Shown: positions 618 through 23,620 of the stretch, piece by piece
Layout: every line of letters begins with the position of its first letter
Numbering within the stretch: position 1 is the stretch's first letter
Assembly (NCBI GenBank): GCA_018335795.1
Contig: JAGXRP010000045.1
Coordinates: 1 to 48,154, forward strand
Direction of reading: 5' to 3'
Source of the DNA: Desulfobulbaceae bacterium
GTDB lineage: Bacteria; Bacteroidota; Ignavibacteria; Kapaibacteriales; UBA2268
Length of the DNA: 48,154 nucleotides
Notes under the pieces: model-generated
Seen by the model: the letters and a program-made list of their open reading frames with translations, nothing else
Database searches by the model: none
What the model was told of the DNA's origin: nothing
Translations under genes and position numbers: made by a program

Positions 618-1070
618 CTAATATTTATATAAGACTAATTTATTTGAAGTTGTGTGTCCATTATTTTCAACTTCTATATTCAAATCCCCATTTGGTAAAT
701 CATTCACGAGACACTGTAAAGTTATCGTTGAGTGCTTCATAATTAATTTTACTTTCTCATCGTCAGAATTAAAACTACCGATTATTCTATTATTTGGTTC
801 AAGTTTATGTTTATCATACAAACCTATTACAATCAAAGTATCATTTTTGCTATATTTGACTTTAAAATCATTTAGATTATCAGTTTTTATAGCATATTGA
901 TAGTAATTAAGCCCTAACGTTAAAGTATCATTGTTGCTTATTGGGTTTGGGTATAAAATTGTCATTTCAAAAACAGAAGGTACTGGCAGTATATCATCAT
1001 CATTTTCGCAACTCTGAAAGTACATAAAAGCAATCAAAGTATAAATTAGAAGTTGATTTTTCGATTTCAT
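618..1070 (-). CDS. small lipoprotein of unknown function
   Basis: A 150-residue protein with a lipoprotein signal peptide: basic N-terminus, hydrophobic stretch, then a lipobox-like FQSC with Cys21, followed by acidic residues. The mature part is predicted beta-rich. It appears to be a distant paralogue of the next gene upstream (1067-1525). Both have a short segment ending in LYP or LAP after the lipid anchor, a central D-x-L-x-VIG motif and a C-terminal (L/F)(N/D)(I/L)EV strand. The start overlaps the stop of that neighbour by four bases (ATGA), so the two are probably translationally coupled. It is the last gene of the operon that begins near 2052. The function is not recognisable. Confidence 0.75.
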   Translation of the reverse strand: MKSKNQLLIYTLIAFMYFQSCENDDDILPVPSVFEMTILYPNPISNNDTLTLGLNYYQYAIKTDNLNDFKVKYSKNDTLIVIGLYDKHKLEPNNRIIGSFNSDDEKVKLIMKHSTITLQCLVNDLPNGDLNIEVENNGHTTSNKLVLYKY

Positions 1071-1525
1071 AATTTTACGCCCTTTGTACTTATAGTTAAT
1101 TGTTCACTGCTTTTTGCTCGATGATTCCCGATGATGACCTCTAAATCGAACGCACCGGAATATAGTCTTGTTGGTTGGCAATTTATAATGATTGCAAACT
1201 CGGTTAATGGTTCTATCCCTAATGATTCATAATTACCCAATAGCTCAACATCATTACCGTTTTTCTTCAATATTCCGATAACCGAAAGTGAATCATTAAT
1301 ATCTTTGTTACTTATCAAAACCTTCACATCACTAAGGGAGCTAATGTTGATATTGTTTTTAGGTACATCTAATACTACTGATAATTGACCGGTTCCATTG
1401 ATTACAAATGGAGCCAACATTCGTATTTTGAATGGTTCATCATCAGAAACGACAGATTTTTCGCAACCCGTAAATTGTAAAGTTACTAACAGTAACAATA
1501 AAATTGACATTACATTATATTTCAT
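1067..1525 (-). CDS. small lipoprotein of unknown function
   Basis: A 152-residue predicted lipoprotein. The hydrophobic signal is followed by FTGC (Cys21) and then charged residues. The mature domain is beta-rich and resembles the downstream neighbour at 618-1070, which suggests a tandem duplication. An AAAGGA Shine-Dalgarno sits inside the end of the upstream gene (stop at 1530-1532), five bases before this ATG, so the genes are tightly coupled. As the second gene of the operon, its expression should follow the leader and microsatellite at 1983-2052. No known family is recognised. Confidence 0.75.
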   Translation of the reverse strand: MKYNVMSILLLLLVTLQFTGCEKSVVSDDEPFKIRMLAPFVINGTGQLSVVLDVPKNNINISSLSDVKVLISNKDINDSLSVIGILKKNGNDVELLGNYESLGIEPLTEFAIIINCQPTRLYSGAFDLEVIIGNHRAKSSEQLTISTKGVKL

Positions 1526-1529
1526 AATT

Positions 1530-1952
1530 TTATTCCTTTTGACTGATAATCTTTTTTATTTCTTCATTTTCATTTTTTAGTTCGATGATGTATAGTGTAA
1601 GTTCTTCAATTTTTTTCAATAAGCGGGCTTGCATATCGCCAATTTCTACACCATTATTTGCTACTTCTTGAGCATTGGGAATTCCGGGCAAATGCTTGTT
1701 TGTTTTTATGAAATCTTCAAGTTCACTGAGAGATTTTAACTTATAGTCATTTTCGAAAACATAATCGGGACAACATGGTTCGCCAGAAAGTGATACTCTA
1801 ACTTCCTTAGCGCAAATGGTACCATCAACTACTAATCTCTCTGCAGGATTTTCCACACCACCAATCCCCACATGTCCACCAAGTGGAAAAATATTGGGAC
1901 AAGATTGTGCCTCTGTAAATGAATAGTTCGCAAAAAACATTGCTATTACCAT
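1530..1952 (-). CDS. exported protein with S74/endosialidase-chaperone-like C-terminus; start depends on an 8-bp microsatellite
   Basis: From the nearest ATG (1952) the protein has 140 residues. The region after about residue 55 carries a motif familiar from many Bacteroidota surface proteins: PDYVFENDYKL, then HLPGIP, then a final coiled coil (EIGDMQARLLKKIEELTLYI and on). This resembles the S74 peptidase/tail-spike intramolecular chaperone tail. The N-terminus from 1952 is hydrophobic and ends in FTEAQ, like a signal peptide, but has no basic n-region. The hydrophobic stretch extends in frame upstream of 1952 as QGPYIAVNIA, with no start of its own until the leader ATG at 2052, which is one base out of frame in this sequence. 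The true start is therefore probably 2052 when the octanucleotide count at 1983-2028 permits. First gene of a three-gene operon. Confidence 0.7.
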   Translation of the reverse strand: MVIAMFFANYSFTEAQSCPNIFPLGGHVGIGGVENPAERLVVDGTICAKEVRVSLSGEPCCPDYVFENDYKLKSLSELEDFIKTNKHLPGIPNAQEVANNGVEIGDMQARLLKKIEELTLYIIELKNENEEIKKIISQKE

Positions 1953-1959
1953 TGCAATA

Positions 1960-2052
1960 TTAACTGCAATGTAAGGTCCTTGTACTCTTGTACTCTTGTA
2001 CTCTTGTACTCTTGTACTCTTGTACTCTACTTTGTTGACCCGCTTGTTTCAT
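1960..2052 (-). CDS. 30-codon leader reading frame running through the octanucleotide repeat
   Basis: The ATG at 2052 follows AAAGGG with good spacing. The reading is MKQAGQQSRV, then a QEYKSTRV-type repeat, ending TLHCS and a TAA at 1960-1962. Its first codons match the leaders at 21357 and 22253 (MKQ-K-(G/D)-QLNRE). Three octamer units equal eight codons, so the repeat translates as an eight-residue basic period. The distance from this ATG to the ATG at 1952 is 100 bp. Adding one unit (108) or losing two (84) puts them in the same frame and would add a charged n-region to the signal peptide of the downstream gene. It is read here as the out-of-frame state of a longer gene rather than an independent peptide. 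Confidence 0.6.
   Translation of the reverse strand: MKQAGQQSRVQEYKSTRVQEYKSTRTLHCS
1983..2028. repeat. octanucleotide microsatellite, 5 full units plus a partial
   Basis: Five perfect copies of TACTCTTG (CAAGAGTA on the coding minus strand) occupy 1983-2022, followed by TACTCT at 2023-2028. The tract lies inside the translated leader of the minus-strand surface operon. An 8-bp unit changes reading frame with each gain or loss, which is the usual design of slipped-strand contingency loci. Confidence 0.95.
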
Positions 2053-2188
2053 GGGTATCCCTTTATAAATGTAAAAAATATATTATAGGCTTCCGCCTCT
2101 TACAATTTACCAAATATAAAAATCTTTTCTAATAATGTACTCTCCCTAAAAGTAATGACAGTTGAAAGAGTAAAAAGTTACAGGAGAA
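2053..2188 (-). promoter_or_regulatory. leader copy A: promoter-like block, UTR hairpin and RBS
   Basis: Read on the minus strand, 2188-2103 matches plus-strand 21220-21306 at about nine of ten positions by eye. The shared block contains a TATATTTG box (2118-2111), which fits the Bacteroidota TAnnTTTG -7 element, so transcription would start near 2104 with a UTR of about 50 nt. The UTR has the hairpin AGGC-GGAA-GCCT (2098-2087) and an AAAGGG Shine-Dalgarno just before the ATG at 2052. The stretch 1953-2295 is otherwise only this leader, the microsatellite and the short thyX upstream region. Confidence 0.7.
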
Positions 2189-21219: not shown

Positions 21220-21356
21220 TTCTCCAGTAACTTTTTACTCTTTCAACTGTCTATACTTTTAGGTAGAGTATATTCTTTGGAAAAGTTTTTTATATTTGGG
21301 AAATTGAAATAGGCTAAAAACCTGATTTACTTTTGAAAATTTAGAAAGGTGAACCC
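21220..21356 (+). promoter_or_regulatory. leader copy B: promoter-like block, UTR hairpin and RBS
   Basis: Positions 21220-21306 match leader A (minus 2188-2103), and 21299-21386 match leader C (22195-22283). It contains a TATATTTG box at 21291-21298, the hairpin AGGCT-AAA-AACCT at 21311-21323 (one mismatch) and an AGAAAGGTG ribosome-binding site before ATG 21357. The block begins eight bases after the stop of the preceding T9SS cargo gene. Confidence 0.7.
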
Positions 21357-21455
21357 ATGAAACAAAAGGGTCAACTGAATAGAGAAGGAGATTACACAGG
21401 TAGAAAGAGTACAGAGGCGGTTCAAAAACACAACCTGCACCCAATTTATTTATAA
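21357..21455 (+). CDS. 32-codon leader peptide or remnant (MKQKGQLNRE type)
   Basis: An ATG with a good ribosome-binding site opens MKQKGQLNREGDYTGRKSTE, followed by AVQKHNLHPIYL and a TAA. The first ten codons match the start of the gene at 22253 almost exactly and resemble the leader at 2052. The middle part, GRKSTEAVQ, recalls the YKSTRVQ period of the microsatellite leader A. No signal peptide follows. The next gene (21484) has its own start 28 bp later. This could be a decayed head of a surface gene, or a short translated leader. The peptide itself has no recognised function. Confidence 0.45.
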   Translation: MKQKGQLNREGDYTGRKSTEAVQKHNLHPIYL

Positions 21456-22252: not shown

Positions 22253-22915
22253 ATGAAACAAAAGGATCAACTGAATAGAGAAGTACTAAAATTCATTTTG
22301 CTCGCTATTATATTCGCGATGCTTGGCTCGAGCATCGCTTATACTGATGATTGGAGAGCTGATTCGATTAGAATACAACCTGTTGATAAAGTAGCTGATA
22401 CGACTTCTAAATGGCCAGGTATTATATTAATTGGTGGGGGTGGGATTGCTTATTTCAGTGAGTACATCTCATATTATTTTCATAAAGCTCCCGTTGTAAA
22501 TTTAGGAATCGAAATCCCATTTACAAAATCACACATATACGCTCTTGAAATTATGACTCATTCATGGTTAGCTCGTGTTAAAGATTCCGCCTATAAAGGA
22601 GATTACTTAAACAGAAATTATTTCCAATATAATCAGAATCATTACACACAAATTGGTATTTCTGCAGTTTTAAGAGGTTATATAGTTGCTTCTAAAGTTT
22701 CCAAGTTTCGTGTATTTTGGCATTTCGGTTGGCTTTTTTGGGGTAAAAAGGATTATAATTCTCTTGACTTGGGATTAGGCTTAAATTATAAATTCACTGA
22801 TGTTTTAAGACTACAGTTTAGCTATCGAATCTTGTCTGGGATTCCAAATATTGCTGATGGTTCTACATTTACAACCCCAAATTTACTATTATTAAATGTT
22901 TGTTATAAATTATAA
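22253..22915 (+). CDS. exported protein, probable small outer-membrane beta-barrel
   Basis: A 220-residue protein beginning MKQKDQLNREVLKFILLAI: the shared leader residues lead straight into a signal peptide hydrophobic core (FILLAIIFAMLGSSIAYT), cleaved near residue 34. The remainder has alternating hydrophobic/aromatic strands (PVVNLGIEIPF, YTQIGISAVLRGYIV, LDLGLGLNYKF, LRLQFSYRILSG, LLLLNVCYKL) ending in an aromatic/Leu C-terminus, as in 8-strand outer-membrane barrels. It shows how the leader serves as the n-region of a signal peptide when no repeat tract intervenes. The function is unknown. Confidence 0.7.
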   Translation: MKQKDQLNREVLKFILLAIIFAMLGSSIAYTDDWRADSIRIQPVDKVADTTSKWPGIILIGGGGIAYFSEYISYYFHKAPVVNLGIEIPFTKSHIYALEIMTHSWLARVKDSAYKGDYLNRNYFQYNQNHYTQIGISAVLRGYIVASKVSKFRVFWHFGWLFWGKKDYNSLDLGLGLNYKFTDVLRLQFSYRILSGIPNIADGSTFTTPNLLLLNVCYKL

Positions 22916-22990: not shown

Positions 22991-23620
22991 CTACAAACTT
23001 ATCGGCAGCACTACAAATATCAGAACGTCCCAAACGGCATGAGATATGATTCCCGGGACTACATTCCGATATTTGGCGTACATCAAACTCCAATGTATGC
23101 CCAACACCAAAGCCGCTAAAAGCAACATGGGATTGAGTGCCCAAATATGCACCATCGAATAAAGCACAATTGCGATTATCATTCCGCCTTTGACGCCAAT
23201 TTTTTGGATTAGTCGCTCTTGGATGAATCCGCGCCAGAAAATCTCCTCTGCCGGTGCTATCAAAAAAAGAAGCAATGTTGCAATGAGCAACGGGTCAGCT
23301 TGTGTCCGCGTTTGGTAAATTGCTTGAATTTGGGGTATTGTCCAATCAAAAAATTGCACAAACAACCACACTCCAAATCTCGACAGCATATAAAGTAAAA
23401 CCGCATGGGCTAATCCAATCCACAAATATTTCCACTCAAATTTGAACAGTTCTTTCAATCTGTGCTTCTCGTTGAAGAGTGCAAAAATTGCCAATCCGGT
23501 AGCAGCCGGTGTCATCACATGCCAAAAGTACTTGTGGTGTATGAGATGGGTTAGCGCTGTAAATCCCGCAAACATCAAAAACCAAAGTATAAATGCGGCT
23601 GCGATTCCGACTATTAGCAT
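22991..23620 (-). CDS. CPBP-family intramembrane metalloprotease
   Basis: A 209-residue polytopic membrane protein with the CPBP motifs: PAEEIFWRGFIQE (glutamate pair and arginine), a histidine in YSMVHIWALNP, and a final histidine in GIISHAVWD. This is the second CPBP protease in the window and is more compact than the one at 16217, with limited similarity beyond the motifs. It stands alone on the minus strand. Its substrate is unknown. Confidence 0.88.
   Translation of the reverse strand: MLIVGIAAAFILWFLMFAGFTALTHLIHHKYFWHVMTPAATGLAIFALFNEKHRLKELFKFEWKYLWIGLAHAVLLYMLSRFGVWLFVQFFDWTIPQIQAIYQTRTQADPLLIATLLLFLIAPAEEIFWRGFIQERLIQKIGVKGGMIIAIVLYSMVHIWALNPMLLLAALVLGIHWSLMYAKYRNVVPGIISHAVWDVLIFVVLPISL

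Follow-up and report, generated by a model that had tools for sequence, protein, structure and literature searches.

The question raised by this locus is how the gene of a putative exported protein is translated, when its open frame runs upstream of its first ATG through a perfect octanucleotide array and meets the frame of another ATG one base out of phase. The locus lies in a stretch of 48,154 nucleotides (the window), which lies in contig C45 of a 3.53 Mb genome. The elements around the array, together with one gene further along the window that has the same kind of leader, are listed here.

1979-2028, minus strand: octanucleotide array, unit GAGTACAA (= CAAGAGTA), 6.25 units, all perfect
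1953-2052, minus strand: leader reading frame MKQAGQQSRV(QEYKSTRV)n from the upstream ATG 2052, out of frame here
2058-2064, minus strand: AAAGGGA, Shine-Dalgarno-like, identical in 7/7 array-bearing leaders compared (the C22 copy, whose contig breaks off before the motif, is left out of this count)
1960-1962, minus strand: TAA at which the leader frame ends with the unit number of this assembly, 7 nt 5′ of the internal ATG
1530-1952, minus strand: body of the head gene (140 aa when counted from the internal ATG), comprising a hydrophobic export segment and a conserved C-terminal domain
1067-1525, minus strand: predicted lipoprotein gene beginning 4 nt behind the head gene; neither Pfam nor NCBIfam gives a family
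618-1070, minus strand: predicted lipoprotein gene, 4-nt overlap with the previous gene, no Pfam family above cut-off, no NCBIfam family
22253-22915, plus strand: repeat-free gene of 220 aa, leader MKQKDQLNREV joined directly to the signal peptide

The array covers 50 bp with a period of 8 and 100% matches, begins 24 nt past the first base of ATG 2052, and written in the other register reads AGAGTA + 5 × CAAGAGTA + CAAG. When units of 5-12 bp were scanned, no other perfect array in the 48 kb window reached 3.5 units and 22 bp, and because it also recurs at orthologous and paralogous genes, a chance origin is excluded in practice. The sequence ttataAAGGGAtaccc stands just 5′ of ATG 2052, and the leader frame that follows reads MKQAGQQSRVQEYKSTRVQEYKSTRTLHCS, which is 30 residues before the TAA at 1962-1960. 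The distance from ATG 2052 to ATG 1952 is 100 nt (1 mod 3), which places the two ATGs one base out of frame, and a leader of 108 nt (one unit more) or 84 nt (two units fewer) would join the frames. The open frame of the head gene comprises 172 codons and continues upstream through the array, and 1952 is the first ATG of its own. These data reproduce what an earlier sequence-only reading had described, namely an ATG at 2052 with a ribosome-binding site leading through five units to the TAA, a spacing of 100 bp that 108 or 84 bp would correct, and an exported-protein frame that extends upstream of 1952 without a start codon. Two features that define contingency loci based on simple sequence repeats (SSR) are present here: a short tandem repeat that runs without interruption within the 5′ portion of an ORF, and a unit of 8 bp that shifts the frame, with one phase giving the full protein (465 aa in locus L024 and 463 aa in locus L011, both described below).

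The two forms of the head protein that could start at 2052 or at 1952 were compared by hydropathy and by eye, as were all signal peptides considered in this study. The long form has a 12-residue core with a mean hydropathy of 2.53 and six lysines or arginines ahead of it, which fits the earlier description of a signal peptide with a basic n-region, while the corresponding core of the short form has a hydropathy of 1.57 and no lysine or arginine ahead of it. No Shine-Dalgarno-like sequence is present before the internal ATG 1952 (gttaatattgcaATG). The gene at 22253-22915 passes from its leader straight into the signal-peptide core FILLAIIFAMLG, and because this array-less gene has the same leader fused to a signal peptide, the leader ATG 2052 is very likely a genuine translation start. 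The coordinates of the head gene and of the two genes behind it agree with the earlier statement that the lipoprotein genes overlap or abut; their lipoprotein nature was judged by eye from the motifs LQFTGC (1067-1525) and YFQSC (618-1070).

We consider that the array is a slipped-strand phase-variation switch acting on translation, and we give this reading, which is drawn from sequence comparison, a probability of about 0.8. According to this model, ribosomes would start at ATG 2052, and the array would encode a basic, polar n-region (QEYKSTRV repeated) that enters the hydrophobic core YIAVNIAMVIAMFF. Slippage during replication would add or remove 8-bp units and so shift the frame, with one unit number in three giving the exported head protein and the other two phases running into stops near the internal ATG. 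The window copy would be OFF in this assembly. Because both wrong phases stop close to the internal ATG, weak re-initiation at 1952 could be possible in them and would give a poorly exported form. The two lipoprotein genes behind the head gene may follow the switch as well, as the earlier reading proposed. At least four loci with 6.25, 11.25, 10.1, and 8.1 units could display combinations of surface proteins, and switching among these would presumably be of benefit.

Other copies of the array were searched for in the own genome and beyond it. Three exact octamer units were found at only three places in the own genome, which are the window, the right end of contig C22, and the start of contig C49. 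Among 60 genomes searched (relatives and the own genome), three units were present only in the own genome and in G001, a sister species of the same genus, while the genome G002 of this genus has neither the array nor a head homologue. In a scan of a genome collection, outside which near relatives may possibly lie, four exact units were present only in the metagenome-assembled genome Bacteroidetes bacterium CROMO_A_117, and viral contigs gave no exact 3-unit match. CROMO_A_117 is 100% identical to the own genome over 1865 bp of C22 and 257 bp of C49, and it was therefore treated as the same population and not as an independent strain; its contigs supply the full loci where C22 and C49 are cut (L011 1792 and L012 7798). 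The leader-like matches in C57 of the own genome and in C20 and C4 of G001 were dropped as short frames in another context, and so were two more matches with three mismatches, at neither of which there is a leader. The arrays with their unit numbers, the distances from the leader ATG, and the resulting phases are given below, all lengths here and for homopolymers being values from assembled contigs.

Window array: 6.25 units, 100 nt, out of frame
C49 = L012 7798 (one locus, two assemblies): 8.12 units, 116 nt, out of frame, other phase
L011 1792 (completes C22): 11.25 units, 140 nt, out of frame
L011 6873-6953: 10.12 units, 132 nt, in frame, 463 aa
L024 (G001, sister species): 5.38 units, 93 nt, in frame, 465 aa

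One more array, in L012, is truncated because the contig begins there. Among the six arrays with complete flanks, two are in frame (L024 and L011 6873-6953) and four out of frame (the window, L010, L011 1792, and L012 7798), with all three phases represented; since L010 and L012 7798 are one locus in two assemblies, two of five loci would be ON. At least four array-bearing loci belong to the window's species (the window, C22 = L011 1792, L011 6873, and C49 = L012 7798). The repeat number was not fixed among relatives, where the earlier reading had placed its own refuting check, as it amounts to about 5.4, 6.25, 8.1, 10.1, and 11.25 units; all three phases were seen among the copies, and in the sister species the predicted long protein is in frame (465 aa). 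The number varies among paralogues and between species, and it was equal (8.12) at the one same-locus comparison (C49/L012). The flanks of the 8-unit and 10-unit loci are identical over 115 upstream and 33 downstream bases, and because these 148 bases are identical while two whole units differ, the change of whole units outruns point change. The G001 copy is in frame partly through a 1-nt difference outside the array (93 nt is 5 mod 8, the others 4 mod 8). The gene behind L011 6873 has further start codons and its own signal peptide after the leader, and it may be ON independently of that leader.

The array-bearing leaders have roughly 90 to 190 bp of upstream sequence in common, while the bodies behind them differ. 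They are of a 441/465 aa type, a short type of 140 aa without the variable middle part (the window and L012, either of which could be decaying), or a divergent protein of 463 aa, which has 28% overall identity and the same C-terminal domain. Lipoprotein-like genes come after the head genes, and judging by what C22, L011, L012, and C49 have in common, three or more operons may stand in tandem in a single island. A promoter scan 5′ of the leader gave no more matches than in shuffled sequences. Pfam searches found no family up to E 0.5 for three head proteins and NCBIfam likewise names none; their C-terminal domain matches no named family in either collection, and neither places a type IX secretion system (T9SS) C-terminal sorting domain on the head protein. 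Such a sorting domain was found above cut-off on three neighbouring genes (L011 2349-4826, L012 3887-6706, and L012 517-3120). Tail-fibre profiles of PHROG matched in part residues 25-172 of the 441 aa L011 protein (best E 3.3e-10) and did not match the window protein or the 463 aa L011 protein. The predicted structure of the 441 aa protein had a mean pLDDT of only 29.9, and a profile search against solved structures gave only two matches, both at chance level. In the window itself, two further parts of the cassette were delimited.

2053-2188, minus strand: conserved promoter-side part of the cassette; alignments with other copies stop at 2143-2188
21222-21455, plus strand: diverged array-less copy of the upstream region and leader (MKQKGQLNREGDYTGRKSTEAV...), with a frame of 32 aa

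Similarity to the thyX region of the sister genomes begins at 2199-2209, just beyond the promoter-side part. The 19-kb stretch 2209-21214 matches two sister species at both ends, with the same order and spacing, and on either side of it stands a copy of the leader cassette (about 2052-2188 and 21222-21440), the two being in inverted orientation. In the sister species thyX comes after a gene of a CPBP-type protease (here 22991-23620), directly in G001, while in G002 the two are separated by two inserted lipoprotein-like genes (L084 4039-5277) of the type seen behind the L012 head gene. This arrangement is consistent with an inversion of the 19-kb stretch between the cassette copies, and surface genes may have entered repeatedly at the CPBP-thyX junction. 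At positions 181-534 a 126-bp unit stands roughly three times in tandem, and its two ends (GTTCCGTCAGTTGTT and AACAACTGACGGGAC) form inverted repeats. G002 has a comparable element adjoining thyX, and a related but shorter motif was seen 5′ of other copies of the cassette.

Homologues of the head protein, searched for with the G001 head protein as a query, were found in 15 of 54 genomes of the family, and a tightened cut-off applied to the order gave 35 of 123 genomes. The genes fetched were 26 from the family outside the genus and 39 from outside the family, and of these 22 + 39 = 61 were used, with G011:C41:2480, G011:C41:5589, G024:C201, and G035:C217 left out as truncated or very small. 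The 5′ end was complete in 56 of the 61, and the five rows cut by the start of their stretch, one of which (L225) begins inside a CCACT array, were not included among the 56. Units of 1-12 bp were scanned, and a repeat was counted if it fell between −150 and +200 nt relative to the open-frame start; the loci picked for their arrays were kept out of this enrichment test. The data showed a repeat near the frame start in 16 of the 56 homologues versus 0 of 86 other ORFs of at least 100 codons in the same stretches (Fisher p = 7.7e-8, which is a guide only, as the genes were taken as independent though they are related and more than one may come from a single genome), while 40 of the 56 had no repeat by the thresholds used. 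One positive row has an unread run beside its heptamer units, and without it the count is 15. An earlier, smaller test had given 6/19 versus 0/56 (p = 1.3e-4, with one homologue among the controls), and an earlier test with looser thresholds 5/13 versus 1/27, the one being the front part of the G058:C61 gene. This gene, which was scored as repeat-free in the 56, has a 10-unit CCGCAGA array before its signal peptide, out of frame and in a separate upstream frame.

The repeat lies inside the open frame in 13 of the 16 positive homologues. Counted by gene, these repeats are poly-G (six), poly-C, TA, and TC (one each), and the longer units TTCAA, CTCACGG, GCTCAAC, and GACCGCA (one each, the last beside the unread run). 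The other three homologues have the repeat upstream of the frame, which is AATAAC in G011:C39, AAGTT in G018:C64, and poly-G in G052:C6. The unit lengths inside frames are 1, 2, 5, and 7 (8 in the window's genus), never a multiple of three, and the sole hexamer of the census stands 5′ of its frame. No stop occurs in any of the three sense frames of the penta-, hepta-, and octamer units located inside frames, whereas the two promoter-side units do contain stops. Five of the 13 inside-frame repeats connect in frame an ATG before the repeat with the hydrophobic segment, seven do not, and one is undecidable. Two rows that a mechanical rule would call ON, which are the row holding the unread run and G023:C20, whose qualifying ATG follows that of the signal peptide, were not counted as such; L200 and L201, both from one genus, were counted as ON, and each also has a second, out-of-frame upstream ATG. 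The G006 paralogues L133 and L136 have the leader ...KSGLSRLQFN in common, one with 4.4 TTCAA units, in frame, the other with about two units, out of frame.

Judged from this census, it is the position of the repeat, and not its sequence, that recurs across the order. The types that would have replaced each other are the octamer, three heptamers, two pentamers, TA, TC, poly-G, and poly-C, and we regard it as rather likely that a surface-protein family has been kept phase-variable at a fixed signal-peptide place, while the repeat was replaced again and again. The proposal of the sequence-only reading, a slip-strand octamer switch inside a signal-peptide leader, thus gains support from the unit numbers, the phases, and the repeats in homologues.

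Homopolymers were surveyed in 14 chosen genomes of the family, which were those of the own genus and those with homologues. G/C runs of at least 10 are rare, with 39 in the 14 genomes, and 16 of these stand at the 5′ end of an ORF with the frame of an upstream ATG reading into the run. This leading frame agrees with the downstream frame in three of the 16, and in a fourth (G023:C20) only through a later ATG. The other 23 tracts did not score as lying at gene starts: 21 have no abutting ORF of 120 aa, one is inside a gene, and one runs into an ORF of another kind; three of the 21, at contig ends, resemble the gene-start tracts. The own genome has poly-C tracts before hydrophobic segments in C1 and C82, and similar tracts at the contig ends of C25 and C43. 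In the window's genus, poly-C or poly-G was also seen just before a signal-peptide-like hydrophobic segment in L176, L151, L152, L162, and L169. The window's species seems to use more than one repeat type at signal peptides, and the set of switchable genes in the genus is probably larger than the octamer family.

The weightiest alternative to a translational switch is that translation starts, or restarts, at ATG 1952 in every phase, so that the array only tunes the amount or the export of the protein and there is no full ON and OFF. A stop codon this close to a start is typical of translational coupling. The TAA of the window copy lies 7 nt before ATG 1952, and the other out-of-frame phase stops just after the internal ATG (ATGGTAA) in L010, L011 1792, and L012. 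We nevertheless think this unlikely, as nothing resembling a Shine-Dalgarno sequence precedes the internal ATG, from which the signal peptide would lack a basic n-region, and as most homologues with poly-G or poly-C at the signal peptide (13 of the 18 rows in which an ORF abuts the tract) show, in the downstream frame, no ATG at the tract or before it. A start at 1952 is also compatible with the switch model, as slippage would remain the cause. A passive origin, in which the array is a fixed remnant spread by copying of the cassette, its length changes are old, and the OFF copies are pseudogenes, appears improbable to us. The cassette copies are alike enough for duplication, and the window head gene is short, but the two loci with identical flanks differ in length faster than in letters, the arrays are uninterrupted, the downstream frames of the OFF copies are open, and unrelated repeats occupy the same place in homologues.

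The repeats inside frames also bear on the idea that the repeat works at the level of DNA or RNA, through spacing, structure, or as a recombination hotspot for cassette exchange, with the reading frame being incidental. The three positive homologues with a repeat just upstream of the frame would suit such a role, as would the apparent inversion between cassette copies relative to the two sister species. The in-frame repeats have frame-shifting unit lengths only, the sense frames of the longer units contain no stops, and all these repeats sit in or beside signal-peptide codons, which leaves this explanation little room. It is very improbable that the unit numbers and frame breaks are assembly errors. 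Four of nine repeat sites of the own genome are at most 30 nt from a contig end (C22, C1, C25, and C43), although a single locus split in two may account for both C1 and C25, and sequencing stutter could break contigs at repeats. Such breaks are likewise expected from real mixtures of lengths; the two assemblies agree at the one comparable locus, and arrays of 43-90 bp would fit inside ordinary short reads.

The mechanism of the proposed translational switch most resembles that of Neisseria opa, the resemblance being in the working only. In the opa genes, as described in PMC4534519 and PMC3960869, CTCTT repeats in the leader (signal-peptide) codons shift the frame, several loci are present per genome, and a clone expresses none, one, or two of them. 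The locus of the window is similar in having a short repeat, with a unit that is not a multiple of three, in the leader codons of a multi-locus surface-protein family. It differs in that the unit is an octamer and not a pentamer, the head protein has no Pfam family and is unrelated to the Opa outer-membrane barrel, and the head gene precedes lipoprotein and T9SS-type genes; among relatives the unit changes while the place is kept, and the switching at the present locus is a proposed one. Poly-G tracts of Campylobacter and Helicobacter are also frameshift switches. In Listeria inlA, a 5′ poly-A homopolymer shifts the frame (PMC2831843). Such homopolymer switches have in common with the present family a tract at the 5′ end of a coding gene, while here poly-G, poly-C, TA, TC, and penta-, hepta-, and octamers alternate in one protein family. 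In Haemophilus influenzae, hmw and other loci with hepta- to nonanucleotide SSR link long-unit repeats to phase variation, and the octamers described there lie upstream of genes and not in signal-peptide codons (PMC2651432). Surface traits of Bacteroides, as described in PMC11868660, phase-vary through DNA inversion by an invertase, which is likewise surface phase variation in Bacteroidetes, with inversion there and putative repeat slippage here. Among the matches listed in the open-access literature, there was no report of repeat phase variation in this group, which argues only weakly that none exists. The octamer in signal-peptide codons, the multi-locus cassette, and the turnover of repeat types at one place across the order appear to be new features.

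Switching of surface proteins by repeat slippage is best documented in host-adapted pathogens, where it is usually tied to immune escape. The phase-variation examples drawn from PMC11868660 are also mostly of this kind. CROMO_A_117 probably comes from serpentinite groundwater, as its name implies, and since escape from host immunity is unlikely in such a setting, phages, predators, or competition are candidate drivers. OFF copies of these genes are likely to be annotated as truncated genes or with a late start codon. If the proposed reading is true, surfaces would be diversified within populations in a manner similar to opa, probably in groundwater as well, and selection would act on switchability and not on any particular repeat. 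Since the unit differs while the place stays, the pattern would offer a natural test of selection for switchability itself.
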